From: Marchantia polymorpha subsp. ruderalis
Lineage: Eukaryota > Streptophyta > Marchantiopsida > Marchantiales > Marchantiaceae
DNA length: 64,000 bases
Direction of reading: 5' to 3'
Assembly: GCA_037833965.1 (NCBI GenBank)
Contig: AP031357.1
Coordinates: 8,514,001 to 8,578,000 of the forward strand
Shown here: positions 12,801-52,436 of the stretch, in pieces
Layout: the number at the start of each line of letters is the position of its first letter
Numbering within the stretch: position 1 is the first letter of the stretch
Notes under the pieces: generated by a model
What the model was told of the DNA's origin: nothing
The model's input: only the letters and a program-made list of their open reading frames with translations
The model's database searches: none
Position numbers and translations under genes: made by a program

Positions 12801-13175
12801 CCAGGGGATTGCGGATCTCTAGTTCTAGAACGTCTGCCTCCTGAGCTGCTTTGAAGGCTAATCTCAAGGTTATATTAGAGAAGAATCTTCCTTAGATCTC
12901 CAGCGATCAGCGGCGTCACGATATTGTGCACATATCGAGAATTCCAAAGATATGCATCATCACTACCTCATGGTCGGAGAGTGTATACTGTTGCAACCTT
13001 GACCGCCACTAGAGGAATTTTGACTGTGATATAGTGAGAACTATATAAACCGCTTCGGATTGAGGAAAATATATCGTGCACTTCTTTGTGCACACAAGTA
13101 TCCCTTCCAACAGCATTCCCATCATCTGCCTGACGTCAACTTGAATTTTCTTGCATCTGAAGCTTACATCAGTGC
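9860..13175. other. intergenic stretch between the two peroxidase genes
   Basis: About 3.3 kb. It contains a partial 41/47-bp tandem duplication at 10161-10248, an AT-rich block around 10.9-11.8 kb with a (TA)n run at about 11455-11473, and a single open minus-strand stretch at 12420-12614. That stretch (with TEHLHDKQLLPASKGTFPEF and RTRWGNFLQNVLDDVQ) has protein-like composition but no recognised family and no clear partner exon. The last part is presumably the promoter of the second peroxidase. Confidence 0.45.
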
Positions 13176-15995: not shown

Positions 15996-16027
<32 letters not shown>

Positions 16028-16782
16028 CTTGCTTTTACAAATACTGATATGAAAAAAAATATGTACTGCTTCTTTAATATCATATAATTAAAAATCGGAG
16101 AAGTACTACAATTTTTTTCCTCAAGATTTAAGTTTTCAAGTGCCATGAAGATTTATAAGCAAATTCGAGATTTATATGAAATGAATCGTTGTATACAATT
16201 TATTTAAAAACAAAACCACTTTCCATATTGGATTTTAGAGTTTGTCTACAGTTCAGGTTACATTCCAAATCTGTATATATTTGAACAAAATTTTGTGATT
16301 AAAAAAAACGCATGAAAACTAATTAACTTAGAAGAACTTTATCTTCAAATGATGGAGCATGAAATCATTTTCAAGTGGTTTATACTATATTCCGGACAAA
16401 GTTCTGTATGGAGCATTACTTTTAAATGCTCGTCACTTAACCTGAAAACGGGATTAGTACTTTAGTTCTTAGCAAAATGTGAAAACGGGATTAGTACTTT
16501 AGTTCTTAGCAAAATGTAACAAGAAAGAAGATTATAACATTCAAGTATTATGATAACTTTCAAAAACCAGTTTATTTCAATTTTTCGGTTTTGTTTCCTA
16601 GAAGTCATTAAATTATATTCTCTGGTATTTACCTTCTTCCGACCTTGTATAATGACTAATTTCTAGGAATTAGATCAATGACTAACACCAGTATATGTCT
16701 AAAAGAATGTTGTTCCCCAGGGAAAAACGAGTATCCCACGGATACACTGTGTATAGTGGTTGGAGCGCTGTCGAGCTCACAG
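15106..16782. other. AT-rich intergenic stretch
   Basis: No gene seen. It contains an (AT)n microsatellite at about 15998-16026 and a perfect 37-bp tandem duplication at 16444-16517. Confidence 0.6.
16444..16517. repeat. perfect 37-bp tandem duplication
   Basis: Bases 16444-16480 and 16481-16517 are identical 37-bp copies in AT-rich DNA between Prx2 and the peroxidase pseudogene. A recent slippage or repair event is likely. Confidence 0.9.
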
Positions 16783-18586
16783 CTAACTAGCAATGAGTTC
16801 TAGCTTTGACGACAACCAAATTGAGAAGAAATAGTGTGAGATGGAGAAGAAACCACAATGACGATGGATCTGTTCTCGTGATGTTTGAAACACACGAATC
16901 TTAATTATTCTCCAAATCGTAGCAGCAAGATCGGCAAAGAAGGGTGTGGGAAGCCCAGCTGCTTGGGCTGCAGCAAGGGCAGGACCATCGAGGGTCCAGA
17001 TAATAGTAGCATCTGAGATGACAACTCGCCTGTTGCTGTGGACGTTTTTGTAGAACTTGCTGTCGAGACTATTTCTCCGCTGGTTTGGGTCCAGCTTGAT
17101 TTCTGTCATGACCTGTCCAAAGGGGCACTGCTGCTTCAACACAGCGGCGTAGCTCGCGTCCAAGGTCGGTTCGGTCCACCATCAGGACCAGAGAAGTTAT
17201 ACAAGCTATTCTGATCGGTCCACACTGCGCAATTCCGGTAGTGTGAGCTACTACGACGCCGTTTGTCTCACTTATTCTTTCTCCTTCGTTACTCTCTTAA
17301 CTTTGAGTATTTGAACTCTGCAGCTCAGCCCCGATTGGAATTTTAGGCAACAAGTTATAAATTCCAACAAGTTTCCACGACAGCTTTTGTTCCTCTGACA
17401 TTTTCTGGAACATAATGCGAAATAATGAGAAGATTTACCGCCATGAGCACTCAGGCACCCCAAAATTGCATCACATCTGGAAATGTAGAGAGGAGGGTCT
17501 GATTATTTTAGTGGTATCCCAGCAGCTCGGATACGTTCCTGAAAGAATGTCCATGTCTTCTTCTTTCCAACCTATCTGGTGAAATGGTGGACAAGGAATG
17601 CGTAGTTGTTGAATGATGACGGCACGTTGCTGGGGATTTATGAAGCACGAGGAACTAGCACGAAGACCCCTCCAATTTGAGCATACGAAGAACCAAGTTA
17701 TTAGCAAAGACAGAGAGTGTGGTGGTTATTGCAAATCAAAGCCTCGACATTTGGCGTGGGTCATTGAACGGGAGGGTTTTGCAACTCATGTACAGCATCA
17801 AAGGCATCTCGAGAAGCAACGGCCACAAAATACACGAGGACACAATGTTAAGAAACACACTGCAGCCTTTCCAGAGTCAATGTTCTCGTAACTCTATCGG
17901 AGAAGGCTTTACCCACACCTTCGTTCTCTGCAAAGTTGGTCTCGTTGGAATCTAAGAATCATCGTAGCCCTGACCGGACCCTGTTGAGTAAGAAGGTCCA
18001 CATAAAGGGTGATCAAGACACACTTGAGAAAAAAATCGTTCAGTCATCACCCCCACTGTAATCAAAAGCCTGCGGTTTCGGCTGCTTGGTTACATACCAT
18101 GTTGAAGGTAGCATTACCATGATCGATCAAGTGGGTGATAGATGTTTGCCTCAAGTTTAGCGCTTTAATGTATGTGTTTGTATGTAGGTAAATTGTGCAT
18201 GAATTACTTTCCTTCTACAGAATTTCTAGAATTTTGTTGCAATGAGAATTCACATTAGGACTCACTGTCACAAACGAATAATGGAACTGCAATCGGACAA
18301 AAGCTTGAGGAATGTCCTTTGCTTTCAGAATGTCAGACTGTATGAAAGTAAGTATGAGATTCCGGGCAAGATTGTACTTTGTTCTGTAGAGGTCCACCCG
18401 ATCGTTCTTTGCAGAAGAGCCGCCGTTAAGCAGTGGACCACTCTGAAAATCCTAACCGTAGTGCCTACGACTCCCATCGTCATGCCCGTCCCCGTGGGTT
18501 TTAACACCTTCACCATCCCGTTCTCCGACTGCAGCAGTAAGAGCCGCCACGGGCAAGGAAAAGGCAACGTTTACAGTCATCATCAT
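16783..18586 (-). pseudogene. class III peroxidase pseudogene (Prx3 relic)
   Basis: Read on the minus strand, all four exon equivalents of the neighbouring peroxidases are recognisable but broken. Exon 1 (about 18586-18250) has a signal-peptide-like start (MMMTVNVAFSLPVAALTA). In another frame it has VRLQFHYSFVT, where the family HDCF motif has become HYSF, losing the conserved Asp and Cys. The exon 2 remnant (about 17980-17780) keeps SNETNFAENEGVGKAFS and ASRDAFDAV but has internal stops. The exon 3 remnant (about 17700-17500) keeps NNYAFLVHHFTR followed by a stop. Exon 4 (about 17260-16810) starts as AHTTGIAQCGPI, shifts frame, and resumes with [18 protein letters not shown]. It lies tail-to-tail with Prx2. 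It cannot make an active enzyme. Confidence 0.85.
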
Positions 18587-32087: not shown

Positions 32088-35000
32088 ATGGCAGAACAGT
32101 TACAGCTGCGGTATCCTGACAGAAATATAGATGAAGATCCCGTTCCTCTCAACTTACGGAGATTCAACTTGACAAATGACCCGGCTAATTGGCCCTTATT
32201 CTCTAGCATCGAGACAAGAGAACATTTCATAAGAAATCACTTACAAGGTGCATTCGAGAATGAGGTTGCTCCCCAACGCTCTGATAGTAGCCCATCTGGT
32301 AGTGGCCGCGGTCCTGGATCTCCGCATCGCTCTGATAGTGGCCCATCTGGTAGTGGCCGCGGTCCTGGATCTCCGCATCGCTCTGATAGTGGCCCATCTG
32401 GTAGTGGCCGCGGTCCTGGATCTCCCCATCGCTCTGATAGTGGCCCATCTGGTAGTGGCCGCGGTCCTGGATCTCCGCATCGCTCTGATAGTGGCCCATC
32501 TGGTAGTGGCCGCGGTCCTGGATCTCCCCATCGCTCTGATAGCGGCCGTGGTTCTGGATCTCCGCATTCGTCTTCGAGAAATGATTCGAGAAATACATCT
32601 GCATATGATGCAGATGTATCTATGACGAACCAAAGTGAAAATTCGTATTCGAGAAATACATCTGCATATAATGCAGATGTATCTAATACCAGCAACCGTG
32701 GAAATAGGTATATATATCCAAATCCCAGTCAAGACACAAGTAATACATCTACAAATTATTCAAGATCCGTATCTACTAGCAGCCACCGTCAAAATAGGGA
32801 TAGCAATCAAAATCGAAGTCAAGACACAAGCGCTACCAACTCTGATCCTAACGTTCGGCAGCCACAACGGAGTTCCAGTCCATCCTCTACTCAAAATCAG
32901 GTACAACATTTTTGTCATGGATTGATTTTCTCGTACCCTTGATTTGTTTAAAAACATGCTTCTTTTCAGTTTTATTTTGCATTCAAAATTTGTTCTTTAT
33001 ACAAGATAGTGTATTTGAAATATTTATGAAGTACGTCTTACATTTTTAATGAACGACCATATGTTGTGGATTTTTTGAATGTGACGAAAAAATATGTTTT
33101 TTAAGGCTAACTAGCTGAAAGTTTACAAACTTATCAAAATAACCACATAAATAACCCTTTCCTTCTCCAGTCTTTAAGGTCAGGTAACGACCCATCAAAC
33201 CAAGGATATACATCCCATTCTTCTCAATCAAATCCAAATTTTACATCACATGAATCAATTAACAGCGTAGAGTCTGAATCGACCACTTCTTCATTTCGAC
33301 TCAATGGACGCGGGAGTGGAAGATCAGATGGAAATAGGAATAACCATCAAAGTCAAAGTCAAGACACAAGCGCTACCAACTCTGATCCTAACGTTCGGCA
33401 GCCACAACGGAGTTCCAGTCCATCCTCTACTCAAAATCAGGTACAACATTTTTGTCATGGATTGATTTTCTCGTACCCTTGATTTGTTCAAAAACATGCT
33501 TCTTTTCAGTTTTATTTTGCATTCAACATTCGTTCTATATACAAGATAGTGTATTTGAAATATTTATGTAGTACGGCTTACATTTTTAATGAACGACCAT
33601 ATGTTGTGGATTTTTTGAATGTGACGAAAAAATATGTTTTTTAAGGCTAACTAGCTGAAAGTTTACAAGCTTATCAAAATAACCTCATAAATAACCCTTT
33701 CTTTCTCCAGTCTTTAAGGTCAGGTAACGACCCATCAAACCAAGGATATACATCCCATTCTTCTCAATCAAATCCAAATTTTACATCACATGAATCAATT
33801 AACAGCGTAGAGTCTGAATCGACCACTTCTTCATTTCGACTCAATGGACGCGGGAGTGGAAGATCAGATGGAAATAGGAATAACCATCAAAGTCAAAGTC
33901 AAGACACAAACGCTACCAACTCTGATCCTAACGTTCGGCAGCCACAACGGAGTTCCAGTCCATCCTCTACTCTAAATCAGGTACAACATTTTTGTCATGG
34001 ATTGATTTTCTCGTACCCTTGATTTGTTTAAAAACATGCTTCTTTTCAGTTTTATTTTGCATTCAAAATTTGCTCTTTATACAAGATAGTGTATTTGAAA
34101 TATTGAAGAAGTACGTCCTACATTTTTAATGAACGACCATATGTTGTGGATTTTTTGAATGTGACAAAAAATATGTTTTTTAAGGCTAACTAGCTGAAAG
34201 TTTACAAACTTATCAAAATAACCTCATAAATAACCCTTTCTTTCTCCAGTCTTTATGGTCAGGTAACGACCCATCAAACCAAGGATATACATCCCATTCT
34301 TCTCAATCAAATCCAAATTGTACATCACATGAATCAATTAACAGCGTAGAGTCTGAATCGACCACTTCTTCATTTCGACTCAATGGACGCGGGAGTGGAA
34401 GATCAGATGGAAATAGGAATAACAATCAAAGTCCAAGTCAAGACACAAGCGCCACAAACTCTGATCCTAACGTTCGGCAACCACAACGGAGTTCCAGTCC
34501 ATCCTCTACTCAAAATCAGGTACAACATTTTTGTCATGGATTGATTTTCTCGTACCCTTGATTTGTTTAAAAACATGCTTCTTTTCAGTTTTATTTTGCA
34601 TTCAACATTCGTTCTTTATACATGATAGTGTATTAAAATATTTATGAGATATGTTTTTTAAGGCTAACTAGCTGAAAGTTTACAAGCTTATCAAAATAAC
34701 CTCATAAATAACCCTTTCTTTCTCCAGTCTTTATGGTCAGGTAACGACCCATCAAACCAAGGATATACATCCCATTCTTCTCAATCAAATCCAAATTTTA
34801 CATCACATGAATCAATTAACAGCGTAGAGTCTGAATCGACCACTTCTTCATTTCGACTCAATGGACGCGGGAGTGGAAGATCAGATGGAAATAGGAATAA
34901 CAATCAAAGTCAAAGTCAAGACACAAGCGCTACCAACTCTGATCCTAACGTTCGGCAACCACAACGGAGTTCCAGTCCATCCTCTACTCAAAATCAGGTA

Positions 35001-38000
35001 CAACATTTTTGTCATGGATTGATTTTCTCGTACCCTTGATTTGTTTAAAAACATGCTTCTTTTCAGTTTTATTTTGCATTCAACATTCGTTCTTTATACA
35101 TGATAGTGTATTAAAATATTTATGAGATATGTTTTTTAAGGCTAACTAGCTGAAAGGTTACAAACTTATCAAAATAACCTCATAAATAACCCTTTCTTTC
35201 TCCAGTCTTTATGGTCAGGTAACGACCCATCAAACCAAGGATATACATCCCATTCTTCTCAATCAAATCCAAATTTTACATCACATGAATCAATTAACAG
35301 CGTAGAGTCTGAATCGACCACTTCTTCATTTCGACTCAATGGACGCGGGAGTGGAAGATCAGATGGAAATAGGAATAACAATCAAAGTCCAAGTCAAGAC
35401 ACAAGCGCCACCAACTCTGATCCTAACGTTCGGCAACCACAACGGAGTTCCAGTCCATCCTCTACTCAAAATCAGGTACAACATTTTTGTCATGGATTGA
35501 TTTTCTCGAAACCTTGATTTGTTTAAAAACATGCTTCTTTTCAGTTTTATTTTCCATCCAACATTCGTTCTTTATACAAGATAGTGTATTTGAAATATTT
35601 ATGTAGTACGGCTTACATTTGTAATGAACGACCATATGTTGTGGATTTTTTGAATGTGACAAAAAATATGTTTTTTAAGGCTAACTAGCTGAAAGTTTAC
35701 AAACTTATCAAAATAACCACATAAATAACCCTTTCTTTCTCCAGTCTTTATGGTCAGGTAACGACCCATCAAACCAAGGATATACATCCCATTCTTCTCA
35801 ATCAAATCCAAATTTTACATCACATGAATCAATTAACAGCGTAGAGTCTGAATCGACCACTTCTTCATTTCGACTCAATGGACGCGGGAGTGGAAGATCA
35901 GATGGAAATAGGAATAACAATCAAAGTCAAAGTCAAGACACAAGCGCTACCAACTCTGATCCTAACGTTCGGCAACCACAACGGAGTTCCAGTCCATCCT
36001 CTACTCAAAATCAGGTACAACATTTTTGTCATGGATTGATTTTCTCGTACCCTTGATTTGTTTAAAAACATGCTTCTTTTCAGTTTTATTTTGCATTCAA
36101 CATTCGTTCTTTATACATGATAGTGTATTAAAATATTTATGAGATATGTTTTTTAAGGCTAACTAGCTGAAAGTTTACAAGCTTATCAAAATAACCTCAT
36201 AAATAACCCTTTCTTTCTCCAGTCTTTATGGTCAGGTAACGACCCATCAAACCAAGGATATACATCCCATTCTTCTCAATCAAATCCAAATTTTACATCA
36301 CATGAATCAATTAACAGCGTAGAGTCTGAATCGACCACTTCTTCATTTCGACTCAATGGACGCGGGAGTGGAAGATCAGATGGAAATAGGAATAACAATC
36401 AAAGTCAAAGTCAAGACACAAGCGCTACCAACTCTGATCCTAACGTTCGGCAACCACAACGGAGTTCCAGTCCATCCTCTACTCAAAATCAGGTACAACA
36501 TTTTTGTCATGGATTGATTTTCTCGTACCCTTGATTTGTTCAAAAACATGCTTCTTTTCAGTTTTATTTTGCATTCAACATTCGTTCTTTATACAAGATA
36601 GTGTATTTGAAATATTTATGTAGAACGGCTTACATATTTAATGAACGACCATATGTTGTGGATTTTTTGAATGTGACGAAAAAATATGTTTTTTAAGGCT
36701 AACTAGCTGAAAGGTTACAAACTTATCAAAATAACCACATAAATAACCCTTTCTTTCTCCAGTCTTTAAGGTCAGGTAACGACCCATCAAACCAAGGATA
36801 TACATCCCATTCTTCTCAATCAAATCCAAATTTTACATCACATGAATCAATTAACAGCGTAGAGTCTGAATCGACCACTTCTTCATTTCGACTCAATGGA
36901 CGCGGGAGTGGAAGATCAGATGGAAATAGGAATAACCATCAAAGTCAAAGTCAAGACACAAGCGCTACCAACTCTGATCCTAACGTTCGGCAGCCACAAC
37001 GGAGTTCCAGTCCATCCTCTACTCAAAATCAGGTACAACATTTTTGTCATGGATTGATTTTCTCGTACCCTTGATTTGTTCAAAAACATGCTTCTTTTCA
37101 GTTTTATTTTCCATTCAACATTCGTTCTTTATACAAGATAGTGTATTTGAAATATTTATGTAGAACGGCTTACATTTTTAATGAACGACCATATGTTGTG
37201 GATTTTTTGAATGTGACGAAAAAATATGTTTTTTAAGGCTAACTTGCTGAAAGGTTACAAACTTATCAAAATAACCACATAAATAACCCTTTCTTTCTCC
37301 AGTCTTTAAGGTCAGGTAACGACCCATCAAACCAAGGATATACATCCCATTCTTCTCAATCAAATCCAAATTTTACATCACATGAATCAATTAACAGCGT
37401 AGAGTCTGAATCGACCACTTCTTCATTTCGACTCAATGGACGCGGGAGTGGAAGATCAGATGGAAATAGGAATACCAATCAAAGTCCAAGTCAAGACACA
37501 AGCGCTACCAACTCTGATCCTAACGTTCGGCAGCCACAACGGAGTTCCAGTCCATCCTCTACTCAAAATCAGGTACAACATTTTTGTCATGGATTGATTT
37601 TCTCGTACCCTTGATTTGTTTAAAAACATGCTTCTTTTCAGTTTTATTTTGCATTCAACATTCGTTCTTTATGCAAGATAGTGTATTTGAAATATTTATG
37701 AAGTACGTCTTACATTTTTAATGAACGACCATATGTTGTGGATTTTTTGAATGTGACGAAAAAATATGTTTTTTAAGGATAACTAGCTGAAAGTTTACAA
37801 GCTTATCAAAATAACCTCATAAATAACCCTTTCTTTCTCCAGTCTTTAAGGTCAGGTAACGACCCATCAAACCAAGGATATACATCCCATTCTTCTGAAT
37901 CAAATCCAAATTTTACATCACATGAATCAATTAACAGCGTAGAGTCTGACTCGACCACTTCTTCATTTCCACTCAATGGACGCGGGAGTGGAAGATCAGA

Positions 38001-41000
38001 TGGAAATAGGAATACCAATCAAAGTCAAAGTCAAGACACAAGCGCTACCAACTCTGATCCTAACGTTCGGCAACCACAACGGAGTTCCAGTCCATCCTCT
38101 ACTCAAAATCAGGTACAACATTTTTGTCATGGATTGATTTTCTCGTACCCTTGAATTGTTCAAAAACATGCTTCTTTTGAGTTTTATTTTGCATTCAAAA
38201 TTTGCTCTTTATACAAGATAGTGTATTTGAAATATTTATGAAGTACGTCCTACATTTTTAATGAACGACCATATGTTGTGGATTTTTTGAATGTGACGAA
38301 AAAATATGTTTTTTAAGGCTAACTAGCTGAAAGTTTACAAACTTATCAAAATAACCTCATAAATAACCCTTTCTTTCTCCAGTCTTTAAGGTCAGGTAAC
38401 GACCCATCAAACCAAGGATATACATCCCATTCTTCTCAATCAAATCCAAATTTTACATCACATGAATCAATTAACAGCGTAGAGTCTGAATCGACCACTT
38501 CTTCATTTCGACTCAATGGACGCGGGAGTGGAAGATCAGATGGAAATAGGAATAACAATCAAAGTCCAAGTCAAGACACAAGTGCTACCAACTCTGATCC
38601 TAACGTTCGGCAGCCACAACGGAGTTCCAGTCCATCCTCTACTCAAAATCAGGTACAACATTTTTGTCATGGATTGATTTTCTCGTACCCTTGATTTGTT
38701 TAAAAACATGCTTCTTTTCAGTTTTATTTTGCATTCAACATTCGTTCTTTATACAAGATAGTGTATTTGAAATATTTATGTAGTACGGCTTACATTTTTA
38801 ATGAACGACCATATGTTGTGGATTTTTTGAATGTGACAAAAAATATGTTTTTTAAGGCTAACTAGCTGAAAGGTTACAAACTTATCAAAATAACCTCATA
38901 AATAACCCTTTCCTTCTCCAGTCTTTAAGGTCAGGTAACGACCCATCAAACCAAGGATATACATCCCATTCCTCTCAATCAAACCCAAATTTTACATCAC
39001 ATGAATCAATTAACAGCGTAGAGTCTGAATCGACCACTTCTTCATTTCGACTCAATGGACGCGGGAGTGGAAGATCAGATGGAAATAGGAATAACAATCA
39101 AAGTCAAAGTCAAGACACAAGTGCTACCAACTCTGATCCGAACGTTCGGCAACCACAACGGAGTTCCAGTCCATCCTCTACTCAAAATCAGGTACAACAT
39201 TTTTGTCATGGATTGATTTTCTCGTACCCTTGATTTGTTTAAAAACATGCTTCTTTTCAGTTTTATTTTGCATTCAACATTCGTTCTTTATACAAGATAG
39301 TGTATTTGAAATATTTAAGAAGTACGGCTAACATTTTTAATGAACGACCATATGTTGTGGATTTTTTTAATGTGAAAAAAATATCTTTCATAAGGCTAAA
39401 TCGCTGAAAGTTTACAAACTTATCAAAATAACCTCATAAATAACTCTTTCTTTCTCCAGTCTTTAAGGTCAGGTAACGACCCATCAAACCAAGGATATAC
39501 ATCCCATTCTTCTCAATCAAATCCAAATTTTACGTCACATGAATCAATTAACAGCATAGAATCTGAATCGACCACTTCTTCATCTCGACTCAATGGACGC
39601 GGGAGTGGAAGATCAGATACGGACTCACAAGGAAGTAGGGATAACCATCAAAATCCCAGTCAAGACACAAGCACTTCATCTGGATATTTTTTAAGAAACG
39701 CAGGTAATAACGTCGATGATCGCTACGGCAACCGTCAAAATAGGGATAACAATCAAAATCAAAATAGGGATAACAATCAAAATCAAAATAGGGATAACAA
39801 TCAAAATCAAAATAGGGATAACAATCAAAATCAGGATGCGATGCGCGATGGGCAACCACAACAGGATTCCAGTCCATCCTCTACCCAAGATCTGGTAAAC
39901 TCTTTATGTCATGGATTGATTTTCTCGAATCCTTGATTTGTTTAAAAGCATGCTTCTTTTGAGGTTTATTTTGCTTTCAACATTTTTTCTTTATTGAAAA
40001 TGGTGTATTTAATTTATATATGAAGTACGGCTAAAGTTTTTAATGAATGATCATATTTCGTGATTTTTTCAAATGAAAAAACAGTATCCTTTTTAAGTCT
40101 AACTAACTGAACGTTTACAAACTTAACAAAATAAACACATAAATAACCCTTTATTTCTCCAGTCTTCAAGGTCAGGTAACGACCCACCAAACCAAGGCTT
40201 TGCATATACATCCGATTCTTCTCGAACAAATCCAAATTTTTCATCACAAGAGTCAACTAACAGAGTAGCATCTGAATCGAACATTTTTCCATTTCGACCC
40301 AATGGACGCGGGGGTGGAAGATCAGATACGGGCTCACAAGGAAGTAATGATAACCATCAAAATCCCAGTCAAGACACAAGCACTTCATCTGGATATTTTT
40401 TAAGAAACGCAGGTAATAACGTCGATGATCGTTACGGCAACCGTCAAAATAGGGATAACAATCAAAATCAAAATAGGGATAACGATCAAAATCAAAGTCC
40501 AGACACAAGCACTTCATCTGGATATTTTTTAAGAAACGCAGGTAATAACGTCGATGATCGCTACGGCAACCGTCAAAATAGCGATAACAATCAAAATCGG
40601 TATGCTATGCGCGATGGGCAACCACAACGGGATTCCAGTCCATCCTCTACCCAAAATCTGGTACACTCTTTATGTCATGGATTGATTTTCTCGAATCCTT
40701 GATTTGTTTAAAAGCATGCTTCTTTTGAGCTTTGTTTTGCATTCAACATTTGTTCTATATCTAAAATAGTGTATTTAAAATATTTATGAAGCACGGCTAA
40801 ATTTTTTAATGAATGTTCATATGTCCTGATTTTTTCAAATGAAAAAAAAGTATCTTTTTTAAGTCTAACTAACTGAACGTTTACAAACTTAACAAAATAA
40901 ACACATAAACTAACCATTTATTTATCCAGTCTTCAAGGTCAGGTAACGCACCACCAAACCAAGGCTTTGCATATCCATCCGATTCTTCTCGATCAAATCC

Positions 41001-44000
41001 AAATTTTACATCACATGAATCAAGTAACAGTATAGAGTCTGAATCGACCACTTCTTCATCTCGACTCAATGGACGTGGGAGTGGAAGATCAGATACGGAC
41101 TCACATGGAAATAGGGATAACCATCAAAATCCCAGTCAAGACACAAGTACTTCATCTGGATATTTTTTAAGAAACGCAGGTAATAACCTCGATGATCGTT
41201 ACGGCAACCGTCAAAATAGGGATAACAATCAAAATCAAAATAGGGATAACAATCAAAATCAAAATAGGGATAACAATCAAAATCAGGATGCGATGCGCGA
41301 TGGGCAACCACAACAGGATTCCAGTCCATCCTCTACCCAAGATCTGGTAAACTCTTTATGTCATGGATTGATTTTCTCGAATCCTTGATTTGTTTAAAAG
41401 CATGCTTCTTTTGAGGTTTATTTTGCTTTCAACATTTTTTCTTTATTGAAAATGGTGTATTTAATTTATATATGAAGTACGGCTAAAGTTTTTAATGAAT
41501 GATCATATTTCGTGATTTTTTCAAATGAAAAAACAGTATCCTTTTTAAGTCTAACTAACTGAACGTTTACAAACTTAACAAAATAAACACATAAATAACC
41601 CTTTATTTCTCCAGTCTTCAAGGTCAGGTAACGACCCACCAAACCAAGGCTTTGCATATACATCCGATTCTTCTCGAACAAATCCAAATTTTTCATCACA
41701 AGAGTCAACTAACAGAGTAGCATCTGAATCGAACATTTTTCCATTTCGACCCAATGGACGCGGGGGTGGAAGATCAGATACGGGCTCACAAGGAAGTAAT
41801 GATAACCATCAAAATCCCAGTCAAGACACAAGCACTTCATCTGGATATTTTTTAAGAAACGCAGGTAATAACGTCGATGATCGTTACGGCAACCGTCAAA
41901 ATAGGGATAACAATCAAAATCAAAATAGGGATAACAATCAAAATCAAAATAGGGATAACGATCAAAATCAAAGTCCAGGCACAAGCACTTCATCTGGATA
42001 TTTTTTAAGAAACGCAGGTAATAACGTCGATGATCGCTACGGCAACCGTCAAAATAGCGATAACAATCAAAATCGGGATGCTATGCGCGATGGGCAACCA
42101 CAACGGGATTCCAGTCCATCCTCTACCCAAGATCTGGTAAACTCTTTATGTCATGGATTGATTTTCTCGAATCCTTGATTTGTTTAAAAGCATGCTTCTT
42201 TTGAGGTTTATTTTGCTTTCAACATTTTTTCTTTATTGAAAATGGTGTATTTAATTTATTTATGAAGTACGGCTAAACTTTTTAATGAATGATCATATTT
42301 CGTGATTTTTTCAAATGAAAGAACAGTATCCTTTTTAAGTCTAACTAACTGAACGTTTACAAACTTAGCAAAATAAACACATAAGTAACCCTTTATTTCT
42401 CCAGTCTTCAAGGTCAGGTAACGACCCTCCAAACCAAGGCTTTGCATATACATCCGATTCTTCTCGAACAAATCCAAATTTTTTATCACAAGAATCAACT
42501 AACAGAATAGCATCTGAATCGAACAATTTTCCATTTCGACCCAATGGACGCGGGGGTGGAAGATCAGATACGGGCTCACAAGGAAGTAATGATAACCATC
42601 AAAATCCCAGTCAAGACACAAGCACTTCATCTGGATATTTTGTAAGAAACGCAGGTAATAACGTCGATGATCGTTACGGCAACCGTCAAAATAGGGATAA
42701 CAATCAAAATCAAAATAGGGATAACAATCAAAATCAAAATAGGGATAACGATCAAAATCAAAGTCCAGGCACAAGCACTTCATCTGGATATTTTTTAAGA
42801 AACGCAGGTAATAACGTCGATGATCGCTACGGCAACCGTCAAAATAGGGATAACAATCAAAATCGGGATGCTATGCGCGATGGGCAACCACAACGGGATT
42901 CCAGTCCATCCTCTACCCAAAATCTGGTACACTCTTTATGTCATGGATTGATTTTCTCGAATCCTTGATTTGTTTAAAAGCATGCTTCTTTTGAGCTTTG
43001 TTTTGCATTCAACATTTGTTCTATATTTAAAATAGTGTATTTAAAATATTTATGAAGTACGGCTAAACTTTTTAATGAATGATCATATGTCCTGATTTTT
43101 TCAAATGAAAAAAAAATATCTTTTTTAAGTCTAACTAACTGAACGTTTACAAACTTAACAAAATAAACACATAAACTAACCCTTTATTTATCCAGTCTTC
43201 AAGGTCAGGTAACGCACCACCAAACCAAGGCTTTGTATATCCATCCGATAGGGATATACATCAAAATCCCAATGAAGACACAAGTAATACATCTGCACAT
43301 GATTCAAGATACGCATCTAATAATAGCAACCGCAGAAATAGGGATATATATGAAAATCCCAATCAAGACACAAGTAATACATCTGCAAATGAATCAAGAA
43401 ACGTATCTAATAATAACAGCCACCGTGAAAATATGGATATACATCAACATCCCAATCAACATCCCAACCAAGACACAAGATCAAACAGAAACTACAGCTC
43501 TTCCTCAAAGAGGGCTAGACCCAATGAAAATGAACCTGAAGGCAGAGCTTTCGCAAATCAAAGTGCAGGCAATACAGGTGTAGCAGATGAAAGGCCTATA
43601 ATGACATACACTGAAGAAGCTTTTGCAACGCGTCAACCTATATTGTGGAATGGAGATGAACAAATAGTCATATTTGTTGGGGAATGTAATTTTCAGTTCG
43701 AACCGAAGGTAGGCGATATTATAATAAGTCACCCTGCTAGGGCTTCAAGTCGTGCTTCCCATCCACCTAATGTTCCATCAGGTGCTAGAACCAACTGTTT
43801 GCGTACATGGGATGGGCAAGATAGACATGTATTTAACGCTAGCGTGCAACATGGTGATCTCATCCTACGTATTGGTCAATGGAAAATCAACGAAGCAAGA
43901 GGATTATTGAATGAACTCGAAGCCATCGAGGCTCCAGCCTTTTTTTCTCCTTTTTATCGAGTTGATTTATTCTCTGTTCATAAACAAAGACCTGATCACA

Positions 44001-44530
44001 GATATATCTTCTTGGGATATCAATATCCACTCCATCTTGAGGGTGCAACTCCAAGTTACTTATTACCTTCACCAGGAAAACATCTCCAAGCTGGACAAAT
44101 GTGTCCACCAACATTTCAACCCGGAGTAGGTGATGTTATTATCAAGGGAGAATCATGGATTGCTAACTTTAATCACAGCCAAAATTTTCGCAGATCCATG
44201 GTTAAGTGGTACAAAACTCGACAAAAGTTGTTATCATCCAGAATGGGGATTCGTACACAAAGCACGGAAATTAGACAAGGCACAATATTACTACGACCTT
44301 ATGTTGATAGAGCAATAGATGTTACAGGAACAATGATGGGTAACGATAGCTGGGGATTCGCTGAACTATATATAAGAGAATCAGATGGATGGAGATTTTG
44401 CGGCAGAACCCAACACAGAGTATATGAAAATCTACCGACCCCACGAAAACTTCCAATAGTGTACGCTGCAGATCCAGGACGTATAGAAGATAATCCTTCT
44501 TATCCATCACGAATAACATATTCTTGTTAG
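32088..44530 (+). CDS. tandem-exon-array gene encoding a giant disordered, N/Q/S-rich protein (about 2,593 aa)
   Basis: Exons: 32088-32900; 33171-33440; 33711-33980; 34250-34519; 34728-34997; 35206-35475; 35745-36014; 36223-36492; 36763-37032; 37303-37572; 37843-38112; 38383-38652; 38922-39191; 39460-39894; 40163-40660; 40930-41346; 41615-42136; 42405-42926; 43196-44530. Every exon length is a multiple of three and every intron is phase 0, so all 19 join in frame. The ATG at 32088 is the first after an upstream in-frame stop. Donors read CAG or CTG then GTAMAM; acceptors are T-rich ending CCAG. Residues 1-63 (RRFNLTNDPANWPLF) look folded. Then comes Ser/Gly/Arg repeat, then about 1,880 residues of Ser/Asn/Gln repeat units, and a last exon whose final 300 residues look globular. 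No signal peptide, membrane segment or known domain is recognised. Function is unknown. Confidence 0.75.
32277..32567 (+). repeat. 51-bp coding minisatellite in exon 1
   Basis: Five copies of a 51-bp unit (32277-32531) encode RSDSGPSGSGRGPGSPH, with one Ser-for-Gly change in the first copy. A sixth, shortened unit follows (RSDSGRGSGSPH). Copies are almost identical at DNA level. Because 51 is divisible by three, the frame is kept whatever the copy number, and other frames of both strands are also open here by the same arithmetic. Confidence 0.95.
32587..32684 (+). repeat. two identical short palindromes in exon 1
   Basis: Two inverted repeats with 12-bp arms (ATACATCTGCAT and its complement) and 3-nt centres (ATG, ATA) lie near 32592-32618 and 32654-32680. 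They encode NTSAYDADVS and NTSAYNADVS, so they are also a direct protein repeat of about 21 residues. Confidence 0.8.
33171..39191 (+). repeat. type-A exon-intron array: twelve 270-bp exons
   Basis: Twelve exons of exactly 270 bp (90 residues each) alternate with introns of 268-270 bp (three of 208 bp), so the usual period is about 540 bp. Each exon begins SLRSGNDPSNQGYTSHSS or SLWSGNDPSNQ and ends RQPQRSSSPSSTQNQ. Differences between units are single bases. The five contiguous exons from 34250 to 36492 carry Trp where the others have Arg, a sub-family. The introns are as similar between units as the exons, so whole exon-intron units were copied, not exons alone. Confidence 0.95.
39460..42926 (+). 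repeat. type-B exon array: five N/Q-rich exons
   Basis: Five exons of 435, 498, 417, 522 and 522 bp with 268-269-bp introns homologous to the type-A introns. They share the frame of type A (SGND/SGNA near the start, SSPSSTQ at the end). They insert SQDTSTSSGYFLRNAG, NVDDRYGNRQ and a 24-bp microsatellite encoding RDNNQNQN. Three of them carry the STSSGYFLRNAG block twice. The first exon (39460) is a hybrid: its 5' part follows type A and its 3' part type B. Confidence 0.93.
43196..44530 (+). other. last exon of the array gene: repeat tail plus unrecognised C-terminal domain
   Basis: 444 residues. The first 18 still match the array unit (SSRSGNAPPNQGF). Then come two or three degenerate copies of a Asn/Thr/Ser repeat (QDTSNTSA pattern) and a basic stretch KRARPNENEPEG. 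From about residue 135 the composition becomes that of a folded protein. Two similar segments are seen: residues near 170 (EPKVGDIII, later GDLILRIGQW) and near 309 (QPGVGDVII, later QGTILLRPYV). They suggest an internal two-fold repeat of beta-rich units. I recognise no family. It is the only part of the gene likely to have an enzymatic or binding fold. Confidence 0.7.
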
Positions 44531-45540
44531 TCAGATAAAAACTTTGCATCTTTCATAACCAAACTATGTAATCAAAGTAACACTACTCAGAAAACATCTC
44601 ATAGTAGCTTAGTTTACCTTTGTATACAAGCCTATTTAAAATTAAAAAAAACCCCAAATATCTTATGTTCTACAGGAAAAAACTTTAAAGTCCAATAATT
44701 AGAAACATTATTATAGAATCAATTTCAAAATATTTATTTGACAAATAAACAGAATCAAACAGAAATTTTAGAAAATTTGAATAATTTTTTTACAAGTAAA
44801 ATAATTTTTAAGGATAATTCAGTGAAAATTACTTTTCTTATTACCTCTCTTTTATTTATTACTCTGAAATTAGATCCTTAAAATTTTAAAAAATTATAAA
44901 TGTTATAATCATGTTGTTGTTTTTTTCCTTTTAATCTATTTTGTGTCATGTGTCTGATGTGATTCTTTCAAATTTTCTTTGATTGAAATTCAATTAAATT
45001 TTAAATTAAATACATGCAGTCAATAGATATATTTTAAGATAATCAAAACATAGAATTATCATGAATTGACTCTTCAAATTTTGAAAATAAAAAATAAAAA
45101 TAATAAACTGAGTTTTTTTTTGCTAAGTTAGATTTTTTATGGATTTAGTTATATGATTAAGAACAAAAAAAATTTTGAATATCTTGTTCATTTCTCTTGT
45201 GAATATTTTAATATTCACAAGAGAATAAAAGTAGAATTTTTTATGTTTAAAAAGTTAGATTTCATGAATGATTTTTAATTGGCTTGAAATTTAACAAATT
45301 TTTATCAGATACTAATGATAAAAACAACAAAATATAACCAAAAAAATTACCAAAAAAATAAATTCAAATTTTTAGATATTTTTAACAAATAATGCTATTT
45401 TAAATTATATTTACTGTCTATTTTATTGATTAAAAAATAAATTTAAAAATTCTACACAATCAAGATTGTATAAAGATATTTTTAAAATCGATAAATTTGA
45501 ATGATATTGTATGTTTTAAAAATACATCATAAATGCACTA
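44531..45540. other. very AT-rich intergenic DNA
   Basis: No gene seen. It contains a perfect 15-bp inverted repeat with a 2-nt centre at 45193-45224. The array gene's 3' end and poly(A) region should lie in the first few hundred bases. Confidence 0.6.
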
Positions 45541-48500
45541 TTAGTGTTAACGTCTACAAGGATACTGAATTTGTATTCTAATGTTATGATTTTTACTCTC
45601 GATGAGCGTGGGTCAAATTATTTGACAAGGACTTGTCGCATCTATCATTTTTCAATAAATGATCCGATTTGATAAGAGTTCCAAAGAGCTAGGCTTTGAA
45701 ATGTGCAGTTTGAAGACTAAAAAAGTTCCACTTGGGTTGATTGAGAAGTAGTATAGATTTTTGGAGTTGAGGTAGATGTTCATGACTTTAAAATTCAACT
45801 TGTTGTGGTTTATTCCTTCAAACTAGTGCTCCATCAACGAGACGTACTGCATTAGCTTCAAGCATTGTGTGATGAAAAGCACAAAATCCTTGCAAGTGCT
45901 CAAGTGTTGTGCTGCAATCACCAGTTAGTGATCTACTCGAAGCTCATGTGCGAGCTTAGAAAGACGTGCGAGTAAATGACACAAATTAAAATTCCGAATC
46001 CATGTCGTGCCTTCAAGTTGCTTGTGGTGTCAAAGCTTTCCTAGTACCAATTCTTGAACAATAGTGTAGAGGCCAAAACTGCTAATACTCTGTTATTCTT
46101 GAATGTGAATTAGAATTTTGATCAATAGGAGTATGACTTGCTAGAAGATGGTGACAGATTGGATAGTGTGTACTATTCCATTCATGAAAGGTTGTTGATG
46201 ATATATACATTCTAGATTGTATTTGATATTATCACATCTATTACGTTAAAAATTTTGTGTATTTTTTCAATATCAAACAATTCAATTTGTATGCAGAATA
46301 ATCAACCTTGTAAGAGTGAAGATATTGAATCTGTTAAAATTTGCATGTTTGATAAAGTAGAATGGACATTGTATAAAGTTATATTTATATTTGAGTTGAG
46401 GAAAAACTTAAAATCTTTTTTAATGAAGCTTTATAGAAGAAATGCTTGAAGTTACGTGATAATATTATCTTTAGAGCCCATAAACACAAAAATTTATAAT
46501 TGCTAAAATAAACAACCATATGTGGAGAAGTTAATGTTTACTAAATATTAAGTTGAGATGTCTCATGTGCGCCATTCTATGCCACAACACAAGAGTAATA
46601 GGTATTTGTCCCTCTTATGCTCTTATGCGAGAGAAAGTTATAACTAGACATTGATAGAATTGACTTAATGATTTGCGAATATGGTATGTAAACAAGCATC
46701 AGGGTCAAAACTTTGATGTTGAAAATCACAATTTCAATAAAATATTTGATTACTTACATAGTGTCGTGTAAGCATACTTTTCAAAAGCCTCACTTTCTTA
46801 AAAGTTTTACTATGTATCATATATTGATGATTACTCAAGATTTATGTGAGTTTATTTCTTCACACACAAGTCTAAAATGTTTATAACTTTCACAAGTTGG
46901 AAAAGTCTAAGTTCAGATTCAAATCAGACACAAGAGCATGTAGTATATTTTTGAGGAGTTTCAGAGTTATTGCAAAAAGAAGAAAATTACTTGTCATCTT
47001 ATCATGATTTATATTTCACAAAAAAAATTTAGAGTTTAAATCGATTGGTGTTGGAACAGTTCCGTAGGATGTTAAACCAATCCAGTGTTTCATATGAATT
47101 TTTGGCTTAAATAATGAATATTGTACTATATTTTGGTTACTTTTCTTTTAAAAGCAATCAATGTCTTGACATAATTTGAACTCAAACACAAATGGATGGC
47201 TAATTAAGTTTTTTGAAGATTTAATGTTGTATAGCTTATACTCTAAGTAGAATATGACTAAGTTGTATACTAAATTCATAATGTTTGTATCTGTGCTGTG
47301 AAGCGTTATAGGCTATGGGATTCAATAGCCTATAAATTCATTGTCAATGAAAATGTGTTTTTCAATGAGCCAATATCATTGAAAGAGTATTTGAGGTATT
47401 CAAAACTTTGTATTAAAAAAGAAAAATCTCCATTCAAGGATGTTGTTTTGGAATTATGTTATTAATGATGAGACACAAGGAGAAATTCCGGTGAAGATGG
47501 AGCAAATTCTTGAATAATAGAAATTAAAGTAGCAGGTTATTGTTGGTGAACCTCAAGTATCTACACCAAACAGTAGTGAAAGATCAAAATCTTCCAATAG
47601 TCACTGATCAAATCGGATTAGTAAACTTACTAAAAAATATGTATTATGAAACGATTCATCCAATTTTAAAAATTGTGATATATGGAGGGTGGTGATCACA
47701 TTGTGTTAATATTGAGAAAAAATAACCCTTTTTTATGGAGAAGATCAAACCTCTATCAATAAGCTTGAGTAGATTGTTATTTTGGAGCATGATATGGTAC
47801 AGTTAATGAATAATAAGACTTCGGAGCTAGTGGAGGTACAAAAAATTTATGCTTTAATTGATTGCAAATGGATGTATAGTCTAAAGTATTCAACGGGTGA
47901 TAAGAGAAAAATATTCAAAGCTAGATTGATTGCTAGAAATTTTATACAAGAAAAAAGTATAAACTACAATAAAAAAAATTTGTTTGTAGCAAAGTATGCT
48001 ACAATCTGTCTTCTATGTGCATTTGCTGCAATATTTAATATTCTTATGGATGAGATCCATGTAGTTACAACATTTTTGTATGTATCTGTAAAGGAAAAAG
48101 TCTATATGAGACAACTAGTTGATTTTAGGAAGAAAAGGTCAAGAGAAGTCGATTTGTAGATTATTGAAATCATTATATGTATAAATGAAACTCTAGGAAC
48201 TGAAGTGCAAGATTTGATGAGTTTATGAATGCACAAGATTTTTTAGACTGTGTATGATCTTGAATGTGCAAATGTTCATAAATTGCAACAAATGAATAAA
48301 TATTATGTATGTTATTTGAGAGAGATTAAGGTACATGAAGGGTAATGATGAGATCTTCAATCTTATTATTTTTTTATTTTATGTAGAAGAAATGTTCATC
48401 TTGGTTGACATCTGCAAGAACTAATTGAAGTTTGCATTTAAGATAAATGATTTTGATAAGTCCTAGAATATATTATGGATGAACACTTATAGAAATTTGA

Positions 48501-49880
48501 TGAAATAGAGTTTATGATTGAGTCAAACAGACATTTTATGTTTATAATTTAATGATTGCTGTGAAATATTTTAACAAGATAAATTCTTGATAAATTTAAC
48601 ACATTATGCCAAAGTAGTTAATACTGCCTTGGCATCATATTTCAAACTTTTTGCAACTAAATGTCGAGTTGATGTCATTGAGAAAAGAAAGATGTCATGT
48701 GTTTCTTATAACAAAGTTGTCGGCATGCTCATGATGTGCACAAGGTTTTAATATTGCTCTAGCAATGGACAAGGTAAACAAATACACGTCGAATTTAATG
48801 AATGTACATTGGGAAACAATGAAATGATTCTTCAAATATTTAAAAATAGCTAAAAATTATGATTTATTTTAATATGATTTATTATACAATGTCAAATTTT
48901 TGTTAGACTACGTTGATGTTGAATATGAACATCTAGAGCACAGTAGATCTAAAATTGAATATGAGGGGCTTATACTCCAACCTTGTTGATTTGCTCTTTC
49001 CATCCTTTTGATGTCACTTATAACGATGTCAATGTCTTGAAGGCTACGTGCGTATAGGTAGGTGTCGAGTAAACATAGAATGTTGTCAGAGAAAGGGGGA
49101 GTATGGGAAAAGCAACTCAGAATGGTGGAAGAATCACCCCCCATTGGGTATATGTTTACACTTGATGATGGATGCATTAGTTGAAAATCTATCTCGTAGA
49201 AGTTCTACAACGGAAGTTGAATATGTAGCGGTATGAGAAACAACAAAAAAACTATTCCATTAGATAAATTATATCTTCTCTTATCATTGTCAATCTTCAC
49301 TATCATAGCCAATTGCATTCAACCTTTGTGAAAATTAAATGATGAACAAAAAAATGAAACAAATTCATATCATATATCATTTTATTAAATATGCAAATCT
49401 GATAAAAAAAATTGAGCTAGTCAAGATTTACAGTAAATTCAATCTAATTTATGTGTTGATCAAAGTACTTAATTTTAAAAACTTTAGTATACATTGTGCT
49501 GCTATGAAAATTTTTCATGATGAACACAAAAAAGAGTTTACTAGCATTTTAATTACTTATATATACTTTTATTATATCATGTTTTGGCTGCAGCTTAGTT
49601 CTAATTAGCTATAGTTTAATGAAGGATTTTTTTTTAATTTAATACTAGTTTTATTGCGGAGTAATTATATAGTTTGATAATGTTGTTTTCTCCACAACAT
49701 GCGTTAAAGTGAAGACTGTTAGTGTTAAACTCTATTAGGAATACTTGACTCGGTTTCTAGGATCAGGAATTCTATTGTTGTCTAGTGTTGGACCGTTGAT
49801 TGTACTGTTGATGAATGTTTGCAAAACTATTTAACATGATGAGTGAACTTTTGTGTCATTTTTCAATAAATGCTTCCAGG
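45541..49880 (+). mobile_element. degenerate Ty1/copia LTR retrotransposon
   Basis: Plus-strand relics appear in copia order. The integrase core resembles YIDDYSRFM-stop-VYFFTHKSK at about 46823-46890. The integrase C-terminal region near 47300-47385 reads AVKRYRLWDSIAYKF then NENVFFNEP. Reverse transcriptase is open at 47782-48159, with IDCKWMYSLKYSTGDKRK, FKARLIARNFIQEKSINY and MDEIHVVTTFLY. An RNase H end relic near 49180-49233 contains SSTTEVEYVAV. Stops and shifts break every domain. Possible LTR remnants share TTAGTGTTAA and CATTTTTCAATAAATG: 45541-45661 at the 5' side and 49719-49872 at the 3' side. Downstream of the 5' one, TTTGATAAGAGTTCC resembles a decayed primer-binding site. The element is an old, immobile insertion. 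Confidence 0.8.
47782..48159 (+). pseudogene. copia reverse transcriptase fragment
   Basis: The longest open remnant of the element, 125 codons. It matches the N-terminal part of copia reverse transcriptase: the CKWMYSLK segment, the KARLIARNF segment, then a degraded version of the APVAK region (LFVAKYATI), the MDEIHVVTTFLY segment and the EKVYMRQLVDF segment. The catalytic YVDD region is not recognisable downstream. Confidence 0.85.
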
Positions 49881-51485
49881 TTCTTTTTCTCTAGTGATAT
49901 TTACTATTGTGTGGATGCAAGTTTTAACATATTTCACATAATTTTGTTGAAATGCAATCTGGTTTCATATTTTTAGTTTTCTTTTATCCATACATAACTT
50001 AATACAAGTATTACTTTTTTTTATATTCAATTATAAAATTTTTGTTTCACAATTGTCACAAAAACAATCCAACACAAGTCAACATAAGAACGCCTTGAGG
50101 TTCAAAGCTAATTGACATTGGACATAAGTTGTTTATCATTGCAGACTAAGTCCAAAAAAATATTTTACTAACAAAAATCTTTAAAGTTATCTTTACAGAC
50201 TTTCATAGATTCTCTTATATAGTGCAATTCTAACCAGTTTCACTAACTGAGGTTAAACTAACTTGAGTTAAATCAAAACCTGAATTAACTTTAAACAATC
50301 TCCCCGTTAACATGTCTTGGAAATAGCAACTTCCATAAAATATATAATTACTTTGCAGAGATTTTGTTAATAAAAACTTTAACATGGATCCCTTTGTAAA
50401 CTAGAGCTATACTTCATGAGTCAGAGATTTTGTTAAAAAACTTTAACATGGATCGCTTCGTAACCTGAGCTATACTCCATGCGTCAAAGTCGTGGAGAGA
50501 ACAGGAAGTAACTCATATATCAAGTGACTCCAAACGGTTGAGATTTTTAGAAGGATATTAGCTGAATCACGAATCATGATAATATCTACGAACAATATTT
50601 TCAGTTATATTTTTACGTTTAAAGAGAGTAGGAAGCAAGGTAAGTTAGGATCAAACTTAGTTTTTGTATGCAGCAAAGCTATATCTTGTATATAAGGGAA
50701 GGCGAACAGACAATTCTCTTTCTTTCTCAATATTATATTCATTGGTGTACTTTTACTGAACAATACGGAAAAGCTTATAGAGAAACATTACTGAAATTTT
50801 TCCCAGTAAACTTTAATCTCAAAACAGACATGTGTTTATGTATGCGCGTATTATGTTGTTTAACACTTCTCACCATGTCATGTATAGATCCGTGTAACGT
50901 GTAAGATCTGAGTAACATGATGGTTGGTAACATCGAAGTTGGCGACGTGAGAGTTACTTACAACATTTACTCATTAGCAGAAATAAGAGTATTTACCTGA
51001 CGTAAATCTTCCGGACTCGCGAAGATAAGTGCAAATGGGCTGCGAGGGAATGGGAACTTGCGCATTGGCGCTTGTTTAGCACCAATGGGCCGCGCCGTCT
51101 CTGAGAGAATCGAGCGCAACTATCAGAAGCTCTGCGAAGTTGGTGGTCCGCTATCATGGACCTGACAGGGCGAGAAAAAACCGTCAGATTGATCGGAATG
51201 CGGAGATCGACGGGCCGAAGAGATCCGCTTCAGATAGCGTCTGGAGGCAAGTCTGGAGGCCCCGAGCGCCATTGGGCCTCTCGATCGCTCGGGCCCCCAG
51301 TCATCCAGAACTCGCCATGTGGGCAGCGCAAGGCCCTGCGCACTTGGCACGAGAATTCCTCTGCCCCTCCACCACATCAGCACCACTCTCTCGTACATAG
51401 CCCCCGACTCTGGCCCGCGAAGAAGCACTTGCAATTCTCGCCTCTCTGCTCCCACATTACTTCTCAGCACCTGAGTCCCAGCACC
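49881..51485. other. intergenic DNA and LHCII promoter
   Basis: AT-rich up to about 50.9 kb, then GC-rich. An imperfect direct duplication of about 65 bp lies at 50357-50422 and 50423-50485. In the last 500 bp before the LHCII start there is a GATAAG I-box-like element at 51024-51029 and several CCAAT or ATTGG elements (for example near 51081), as expected in a light-regulated promoter. No clear TATA box was found. Confidence 0.45.
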
Positions 51486-52436
51486 ATGGCCGCCGTGACA
51501 GCATGCGCTTCTGCTACCTTCGCCGGCCAGGCTCTCGGAGCCTCCAGCAACGCGCTCGCTTCGAAGGTGAACGTCGGAGAGGCCCGCATTGTCATGCGCA
51601 AGACGTCCAAGAGTGCGTCATCCAGCATCTGGTAAGCACTTCCCATCGACCTTGTTTTTTAATACAGCCTCTGCGCGATTCTGCTCATCTACTGTCTCAT
51701 CGTCGCTTCCAATGCTCGATCCGGGCACCTGCCTGTCTAATCTCACAGGGAAAATCTAATGTTGTTGCGCTCGTCGTGGTGAAGGTATGGTGAGGACCGA
51801 CCCAAGTACTTGGGCCCATTCTCCGGTGCCACCCCAAGTTACTTGACCGGTGAGTTCCCCGGTGACTACGGTTGGGACACTGCCGGACTCTCTGCCGACC
51901 CCGAGACCTTCGCCAAGAACCGTGAATTGGAAGTGATCCACGCCCGATGGGCCATGTTGGGAGCATTGGGATGTGTGACCCCCGAGCTGCTGGCGAAGAA
52001 CGGAGTGAAGTTCGGCGAGGCAGTCTGGTTCAAGGCCGGGTCTCAGATCTTCTCCGAGGGAGGTCTGGACTACCTCGGCAACTCTGGCCTCGTCCACGCC
52101 CAGAGCATTCTGGCCATCTGGGCCTGCCAGGTCGTGCTCATGGGAGCCATCGAGGGATACAGAGTCGCAGGAGGACCCCTGGGAGAGGTGAGCGACCCCA
52201 TCTACCCCGGAGGTCAGTTCGACCCCCTGAACTTGGCTGAGGACCCCGACACCTTCGCCGAGCTCAAGGTTAAGGAGTTGAAGAATGGCCGCCTCGCCAT
52301 GTTCTCCATGTTCGGCTTCTTCGTGCAGGCCATCGTCACTGGCAAGGGCCCCATCGAGAACCTGTCCGACCACTTGGCCGACCCGGCCGTCAACAACGCC
52401 TGGGCCTATGCCACCAACTTCACCCCCGGAAACTAG
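51486..52436 (+). CDS. Lhcb: light-harvesting chlorophyll a/b-binding protein of LHCII (Lhcb1/2 type)
   Basis: Two exons, 51486-51631 and 51785-52436, joined inside the Trp codon of WYGEDR; 265 residues, the usual length. Residues 1 to about 35 are a chloroplast transit peptide ([17 protein letters not shown]). The WYGEDR segment corresponds to the WYxxxR trimerisation motif of LHCII. Helix B contains [16 protein letters not shown], helix C has [22 protein letters not shown], and helix A has [20 protein letters not shown]. These carry the Glu, His, Asn and Arg residues that bind chlorophyll and form the inter-helix ion pairs. [17 protein letters not shown] follows helix A, and ATNFTPGN closes the protein. 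It harvests light for photosystem II in thylakoids. GC-rich third positions contrast with the AT-rich surroundings, fitting a highly expressed gene. Confidence 0.96.

Follow-up and report, generated by a model that had tools for sequence, protein, structure and literature searches.

The DNA analysed here, hereafter the window, is a stretch of 64,000 nucleotides from Marchantia polymorpha subsp. ruderalis (contig AP031357.1, positions 8,514,001 to 8,578,000 of the forward strand; coordinates below count from its first letter). On its plus strand splice-site patterns allowed us to reconstruct a predicted gene (32088..44530) of 19 exons, with its ATG at 32088 and its stop at 44530, which is best read as a single functional, protein-coding land plant gene, built largely from a tandem array of near-identical exon-intron units. 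Exon 1 measures 813 bp and exon 19 measures 1,335 bp; between them lie twelve exons of exactly 270 bp (exons 2-13) and five of 435, 498, 417, 522 and 522 bp (exons 14-18, in this order). Borders are GT...AG in 18 of 18 introns, 15 of which are 268-270 bp and three 208 bp long, and the joined exons form a single frame of 2,593 residues with one terminal stop. A preliminary description, made from the letters alone, had claimed this exon count together with coordinates, lengths, phase 0 and the frame of 2,593 residues, and all its figures were reproduced by our reconstruction; so was the symmetry of the units it had pointed out, since every exon (19/19) is divisible by three and every intron (18/18) is phase 0. 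The parts of the gene are these, with exons 2-13 and 15-18 placed by splice-site reconstruction:

32088..32900 (+): exon 1 (271 residues), a short N-terminal segment, then a 51-bp minisatellite RSDSGPSGSGRGPGSPH, other low-complexity sequence and, over the last ~105 bp, A-type sequence
32269..32547 (+): 51-bp exonic tandem repeat, 5.5 copies, found with Tandem Repeats Finder (TRF)
33171..33440 (+): exon 2, A-type, 270 bp
33711..33980 (+): exon 3, A-type, 270 bp
34250..34519 (+): exon 4, A-type, 270 bp
34728..34997 (+): exon 5, A-type, 270 bp
35206..35475 (+): exon 6, A-type, 270 bp
35745..36014 (+): exon 7, A-type, 270 bp
36223..36492 (+): exon 8, A-type, 270 bp
36763..37032 (+): exon 9, A-type, 270 bp
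37303..37572 (+): exon 10, A-type, 270 bp
37843..38112 (+): exon 11, A-type, 270 bp
38383..38652 (+): exon 12, A-type, 270 bp
38922..39191 (+): exon 13, A-type, 270 bp
39460..39894 (+): exon 14, A/B hybrid, 435 bp (5' ~150 bp A-type, 3' ~135 bp or more B-type)
40163..40660 (+): exon 15, B-type, 498 bp
40930..41346 (+): exon 16, B-type, 417 bp
41615..42136 (+): exon 17, B-type, 522 bp
42405..42926 (+): exon 18, B-type, 522 bp
43196..44530 (+): exon 19 (444 residues and stop), a ~45-60 bp B-type start, 90-bp exonic repeats, a KRAR motif and a conserved domain
32901..39459 (+): span of the A-type introns I1-I13, interleaved with exons 2-13; 268-270 bp each, with I4, I5 and I7 at 208 bp
39895..43195 (+): span of the B-type introns I14-I18, interleaved with exons 15-18; 268-269 bp each

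Two types of unit, A and B, make up the array. Pairwise identity is 93-100% within the 13 A introns, 91-100% within the five B introns and 80-87% between the types, which bears out the earlier claim that all introns are homologous; introns 14 and 16 are identical, and a deletion of ~61 bp is common to the A introns I4, I5 and I7. No indels separate the 12 A exons, the A introns differ by 1-bp indels in addition to that deletion, and the five B exons differ in length by multiples of 3 bp. Both edges of the array fall within exons, as the 3' ~105 bp of exon 1 are A-type and the 5' ~45-60 bp of exon 19 B-type (with exon 14 a hybrid of the two), so that the repeating element consists of an exon end, an intron and an exon start. 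Nested exonic repeats of 12, 24, 51 and 90 bp make the encoded tail repetitive at several levels. Places two units apart are linked by exact matches of 725 bp (offset 1452) and 454 bp (offset 1017), and places three units apart by one of 589 bp (offset 1495), a pattern suggestive of copying in multi-unit blocks.

Evidence that the array is coding comes from several sides. No stop interrupts the 1,878 in-frame codons of the 17 internal exons, compared with 34, 184, 150, 126 and 84 stops in the other five frames; near-identical by descent, these exons are not 17 independent tests. Divergence among A exons is about half of that among A introns, with 17 of 270 sites variable in exons 2-13 and 36 of 269 in introns 2-13 (Fisher P = 0.006), and the ratio of nonsynonymous to synonymous polymorphism per site (pN/pS) among A units is 0.45. 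What we take to be the strongest single sign of coding is the avoidance of lysine. Residues 1-2253 contain none, and the single lysine of the tail, residue 2254 in exon 19, lies within the KRAR motif, which presumably resembles a monopartite nuclear signal, if weakly. A set of 661 tail codons without the repeated units includes one lysine codon in frame versus 31.2 expected from position-specific base frequencies, and AAA or AAG triplets number 39 and 71 in the other two forward frames of the same set. The C-terminal part has 9 lysines versus 13.3 expected, which confines the avoidance to the tail.

Counted from the first methionine, this tail extends over 2,303 residues before the C-terminal domain, with 202 arginines and the one lysine. 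It is rich in serine, asparagine, glutamine and arginine and contains some phenylalanine and tyrosine; in the 17 internal exons serine accounts for 23.0%, asparagine plus glutamine for 25.8% and cysteine for 0.1% of residues, and glutamine plus asparagine reach at most 53% in any 60-residue window of the tail. The middle of the protein had been called prion-like, a description that these figures uphold for composition only. Charge-hydropathy analysis classes the tail as disordered, and simple hydropathy detected neither a transmembrane-like nor a signal-like stretch in it; the best 9-mer in the first 45 residues, a crude measure for a secretion signal, has a mean hydropathy of 0.59.

Behind the tail, exon 19 encodes a domain delimited by homology searches and leave-one-out profiles, whose two modules have coordinates counted by hand from the protein:

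43658..44431 (+): conserved C-terminal domain, common to eight paralogous loci
43697..44026 (+): first half-module of the domain
44114..44431 (+): its second half-module

The halves are homologous (hhalign probability 95.3; expectation value, E, 2.3e-8), comprise ~80-90 residues each and both follow the pattern GD(I/L)-II ... GD-LLR ... ELY ... W-F-GR. At least nine loci in the genome, the window gene included, form the family. Two paralogs match the last exon directly (C8:17318675, E 1.6e-15; C6:17371589, E 1.2e-6), and chained searches added C3:24414524, C6:11850663, C9:20810802, C6:22885502 (L018), C6:12267899 (L021) and C6:12275439 (L024), with the membership of L021 resting on the profile test. 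In that test, leave-one-out profiles scored nine of nine members at 62.9-152.5 bits versus at most 6.3 for 450 shuffled decoys; the window member, when left out, reached 102.5 bits versus at most 6.0 for the decoys of that run. A tenth candidate, C3:1557576 (L035, E 0.005), is excluded from all family counts. The gene's function had been left without assignment in the preliminary description, and so it stays: none of the nine members has a significant match in Pfam or NCBIfam (best E 0.37 and 0.13, respectively), and sequence searches of the PDB gave no significant match to the domain (best E 0.16 and 0.14), on which ground a domain of known structure was rejected at the sequence level. Among 147 pattern matches in viral contigs, none could be confirmed as the domain.

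At nine of nine loci the domain lies in one open frame without an intron, and the tails in front of it vary in composition and in length (58 to 2,303 residues from the first methionine). Low lysine is partly common to the nearest relative, L002 (3 lysines and 34 arginines in 347 residues), not to others such as L018 or L021. L018 (positions 973-2247) has lysine-rich inserts in both domain halves and 95 lysines between the start of the domain and the end of the frame, the reverse of what is seen in the tail of the window gene with its lack of lysine. L024, which lies ~7 kb from L021 on the opposite strand, has a tail with 49 cysteines and many RS dipeptides in 477 fetched residues.

As for the origin of the introns, a genome search with one of them returned at least 19 matched pieces, all within the array, and by that search the array introns resemble one another more closely than they do any intron elsewhere. 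Within its limits a dispersed introner or transposon was rejected as their source. Birth of an intron by tandem duplication of an exon was rejected for the one intron of the 18 that we aligned, intron 18: when both strands were compared with exons 1, 18 and 19 by local alignment, none of the six comparisons did better than the best of 100 shuffles. Since the eight paralogous loci have open frames lacking such an intron, the array introns are likely derived, and as the simplest history we infer that the window member gained an intron, which then spread together with the repeat. In such a scenario, a family member with an intronless domain would have gained one intron inside an already repetitive, low-complexity tail; segments of exon end, intron and exon start may then have multiplied into types A and B by unequal exchange with exonic breakpoints, because the frame stays intact whenever a unit is added or lost. 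The type B array may have come first and the somewhat more uniform type A later, an order that is weakly suggested by the uniformity of A and the A-onto-B junction in exon 14. Homogeneous introns could supply extra length for recombination that keeps register, as proposed for spider silk genes. Differences in unit number between individuals are plausible. The gene and this proposed origin are, we believe, fairly probable.

Tails of such composition are commonly spacers or condensate scaffolds. Hence we can envisage the domain as an anchor, with the ~2,300-residue tail serving as a multivalent spacer or condensate scaffold that is disordered and adjustable in length; the lack of lysine in this tail would fit arginine-driven interactions or protection from ubiquitylation. 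An anchored disordered scaffold is a tentative proposal that we hold at rather less than even chances; gene, origin and scaffold function taken together, with the weight on gene and origin, seem to us slightly favoured. More speculative, and in our judgement improbable as a whole, is the idea that a plant has, independently of spiders, made the intron a recombination register. Homogeneous introns would hold unequal exchange in phase and so protect the reading frame, symmetric units would let tail length change without damage to the frame, and the product would be a giant lysine-free disordered scaffold (condensate or spacer), variable in length within populations, resistant to ubiquitylation and attached to a domain family absent from Pfam.

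Several observations weigh against the account of a constrained, functional array gene with this family and origin. Mean distance between A units shows no clear rise with spacing (0.021-0.029 over lags 1-11), and no simple neighbour-to-neighbour order of growth is thus visible. Nonsynonymous variation (10 of 209 sites) is lower than synonymous variation (7 of 61) at a P of 0.07 only, and between A and B the ratio of nonsynonymous to synonymous divergence (dN/dS) ranges from 0.58 to 1.70 over 15 pairs, which implies that the residue sequence of the repeats is weakly constrained; frame and composition appear to be guarded more than exact residues. As the 661-codon set retains short internal repeats, the nominal P of 8.9e-13 for its lysine deficit is too small. 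On the side of the family, L021 stayed above E 0.001 in every single search (0.0235, 0.0502 and 0.0055), the lack of introns in paralogs was judged within fetched open frames with assumed start codons, and the frames of L015, L021 and L024 ran off the fetched piece, which cuts their tails there. The N-terminal segment resembles that of L002 by eye, but the similarity falls short of significance (E 0.25-0.89 among ten sequences), and its conservation in paralogs was dropped as a candidate finding. One structure model of the domain is poor (mean predicted local distance difference test score, pLDDT, 47.9; predicted template modelling score, pTM, 0.53) and gives no usable fold, and the scaffold or condensate function is a proposal drawn solely from composition.

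Neutral satellite growth would explain part of this differently: the array would be an intron-bearing minisatellite whose extra length has no function and is tolerated because it is in frame. The A-B dN/dS range fits that explanation, as do the nested exonic repeats of four sizes and the exactly copied stretches. Opposed to it are the halved variability of A exons relative to A introns, a frame kept in 17 of 17 units and a strong avoidance of lysine that is seen in frame only, although none of these points demonstrates that tail length itself matters. On balance we regard neutral growth as unlikely, if serious enough to keep in mind.

The array might instead serve alternative splicing, with symmetric cassette exons included in varying number to yield tails of many lengths. 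Given exons that are all phase 0 and splice sites that are near-identical, any exon skip keeps the frame. Moreover, a donor-like CAG|GTAACG sits 13 nt into 18 of 18 downstream exons (GT at 33184, 33724 and the same place in later ones) and matches the donor consensus, by simple count, at 7 of 9 positions versus 5-6 of 9 for the real donors; it could disturb or regulate splicing. Its use, however, would shift the frame (by 13 nt), its conservation is explained by the codons for S-L/S-R-S-G-N that it is part of, and the units are almost interchangeable, so that choice among them would alter mainly length. We give alternative splicing as the purpose of the array a low probability, slightly below that of neutral growth.

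An assembly artefact, that is a shorter array inflated or a wrong unit count, is a quite unlikely explanation. Identical stretches of 454-725 bp lying two or three units apart and two A units without a single difference are what such an error could produce. Yet the 12 A units comprise 11 different sequences, and eight of the 12 have one or more private substitutions, which is evidence against simple duplication by the assembler; exon 14 passes cleanly from A to B, unique sequence is present in the flanking exons, and a miscount could alter the number of units, not the architecture. Least probable is a precursor cut into many peptide copies, like repeat-bearing plant peptide precursors: near-identical 90-residue units in tandem would suit it, but the start of the protein lacks a signal-like hydrophobic stretch (best 9-mer 0.59 within the first 45 residues), the pieces searched, which were two of the 17 internal exons plus the open frames at exons 1 and 19, gave no Pfam match above cut-off, and the units are low in cysteine (0.1%).

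Elsewhere in the window, five open frames with similarity to peroxidase (PF00141) occur in 7839-17181, two of which reach the Pfam cut-off:

9434-9859 (+): peroxidase PF00141, above cut-off in Pfam
14677-15105 (+): peroxidase PF00141, above cut-off in Pfam
7839-8366 (+): peroxidase PF00141, below cut-off in Pfam
13161-13592 (+): peroxidase PF00141, below cut-off in Pfam
16783-17181 (-): peroxidase PF00141, below cut-off in Pfam

These frames appear to be fragments of three or more genes, and the one on the minus strand may be decayed. Directly behind the array gene lies an AT-rich stretch (44600-50000, 29% GC) with a piece of a Ty1/copia-type reverse transcriptase at 47773-48159 (PF07727). A gene for a light-harvesting chlorophyll a/b-binding protein follows at 51783-52436 (PF00504, E 5.9e-51), its first exon probably within 51105-51635 and a 230-codon open frame on the strand opposite to it. 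The light-harvesting and peroxidase genes mark the DNA as that of a land plant. On the minus strand, a BSD-domain protein gene at 59904-61367 (PF03909, E 3.9e-11) sits in a region of 63% GC, both strands of which contain long open frames.

The closest likeness to the array gene is found in spider silk genes, as far as the available parts of the papers cited here go. Many Argiope MaSp2 genes have a repetitive exon-intron pattern of similarly sized exons with near-identical small introns between them; these introns mark off the repeat units, are more alike within than between genes and were proposed by the authors to aid homogenisation by unequal crossing over (PMC9779670). The Flag and A. trifasciata MaSp2 introns, too, are almost identical within their gene, an inserted intron can spread through its gene, and Flag repeats are thought to be under concerted evolution (PMC3522626, a paper on minor ampullate spidroin). 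In the plant gene we find the same combination, near-identical introns that delimit units and low-complexity repeats between non-repetitive ends; it resembles MaSp2 in both respects (PMC9779670) and Flag in having multiple introns almost identical within one gene (PMC3522626). Within-gene intron identity averages 97.6% in MaSp2 (94.3-99.7% over genes; PMC9779670), a gene average to be set beside single pairs of 93-100% (A) and 91-100% (B) in the plant gene. MaSp2 is an animal silk with repeats dominated by A, G, P and Q (PMC9779670), whereas the plant gene has lysine-free S/N/Q/R repeats, no signal-like start and a C-terminal domain common to paralogs, and in comparison to Flag with its 440-residue ensemble repeats, composition, kingdom and termini differ (PMC3522626). 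A search of the terminal exons for a silk Pfam family gave, for the exon 1 frame, a best E of 0.79, which misses the cut-off, and nothing at E 1 for the last exon. In architecture the plant gene resembles these spider silk genes; it is no spidroin.

Two other known systems bear partial resemblance. As in nebulin-type duplication, multi-exon blocks seem to have been duplicated together, with exon borders inside the repeats; nebulin repeats, in contrast, are folded Pfam domains, and the available parts of the paper make no mention of homogenised introns (PMC1553488). Lysine deserts are long lysine-free stretches that are frequent in disordered proteins and linked to the ubiquitin-proteasome system, and protection from ubiquitylation has already been proposed in print for them (PMC10169902, PMC10665810). 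The tail likewise has a long lysine-free stretch beyond what composition predicts, but no domain of the ubiquitin system was found in the gene, whose conserved domain has no significant Pfam match. Among the literature matches listed, judged by titles and the beginnings of abstracts and hence no proof of absence, we recognised no plant gene of the same make; the available parts of a paper on plant exon duplication (PMC2674458) merely cite the topic, and those of a paper on plant prion-like proteins (PMC8350573) hold nothing on the window gene.

The preliminary description had seen in this locus a candidate for an undescribed system; the family of the last exon, the confinement of the intron to this member in the genome search and the near absence of lysine from the tail were beyond its view. 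With regard to architecture that claim has to give way, as the gene appears to be of a kind already known from spider Flag and Argiope MaSp2 (PMC9779670, PMC3522626), while the plant setting, the unnamed domain family and the lysine-free tail are new as far as our searches reach. The lysine-free tail makes condensation and escape from ubiquitylation testable ideas, and the nine-locus family offers a natural control, with the same domain behind tails that showed no array of this sort. A plant case with a different protein and a different composition from those of the spider silk genes would test whether repeat arrays grow and become homogenised more readily through the presence of introns as such.

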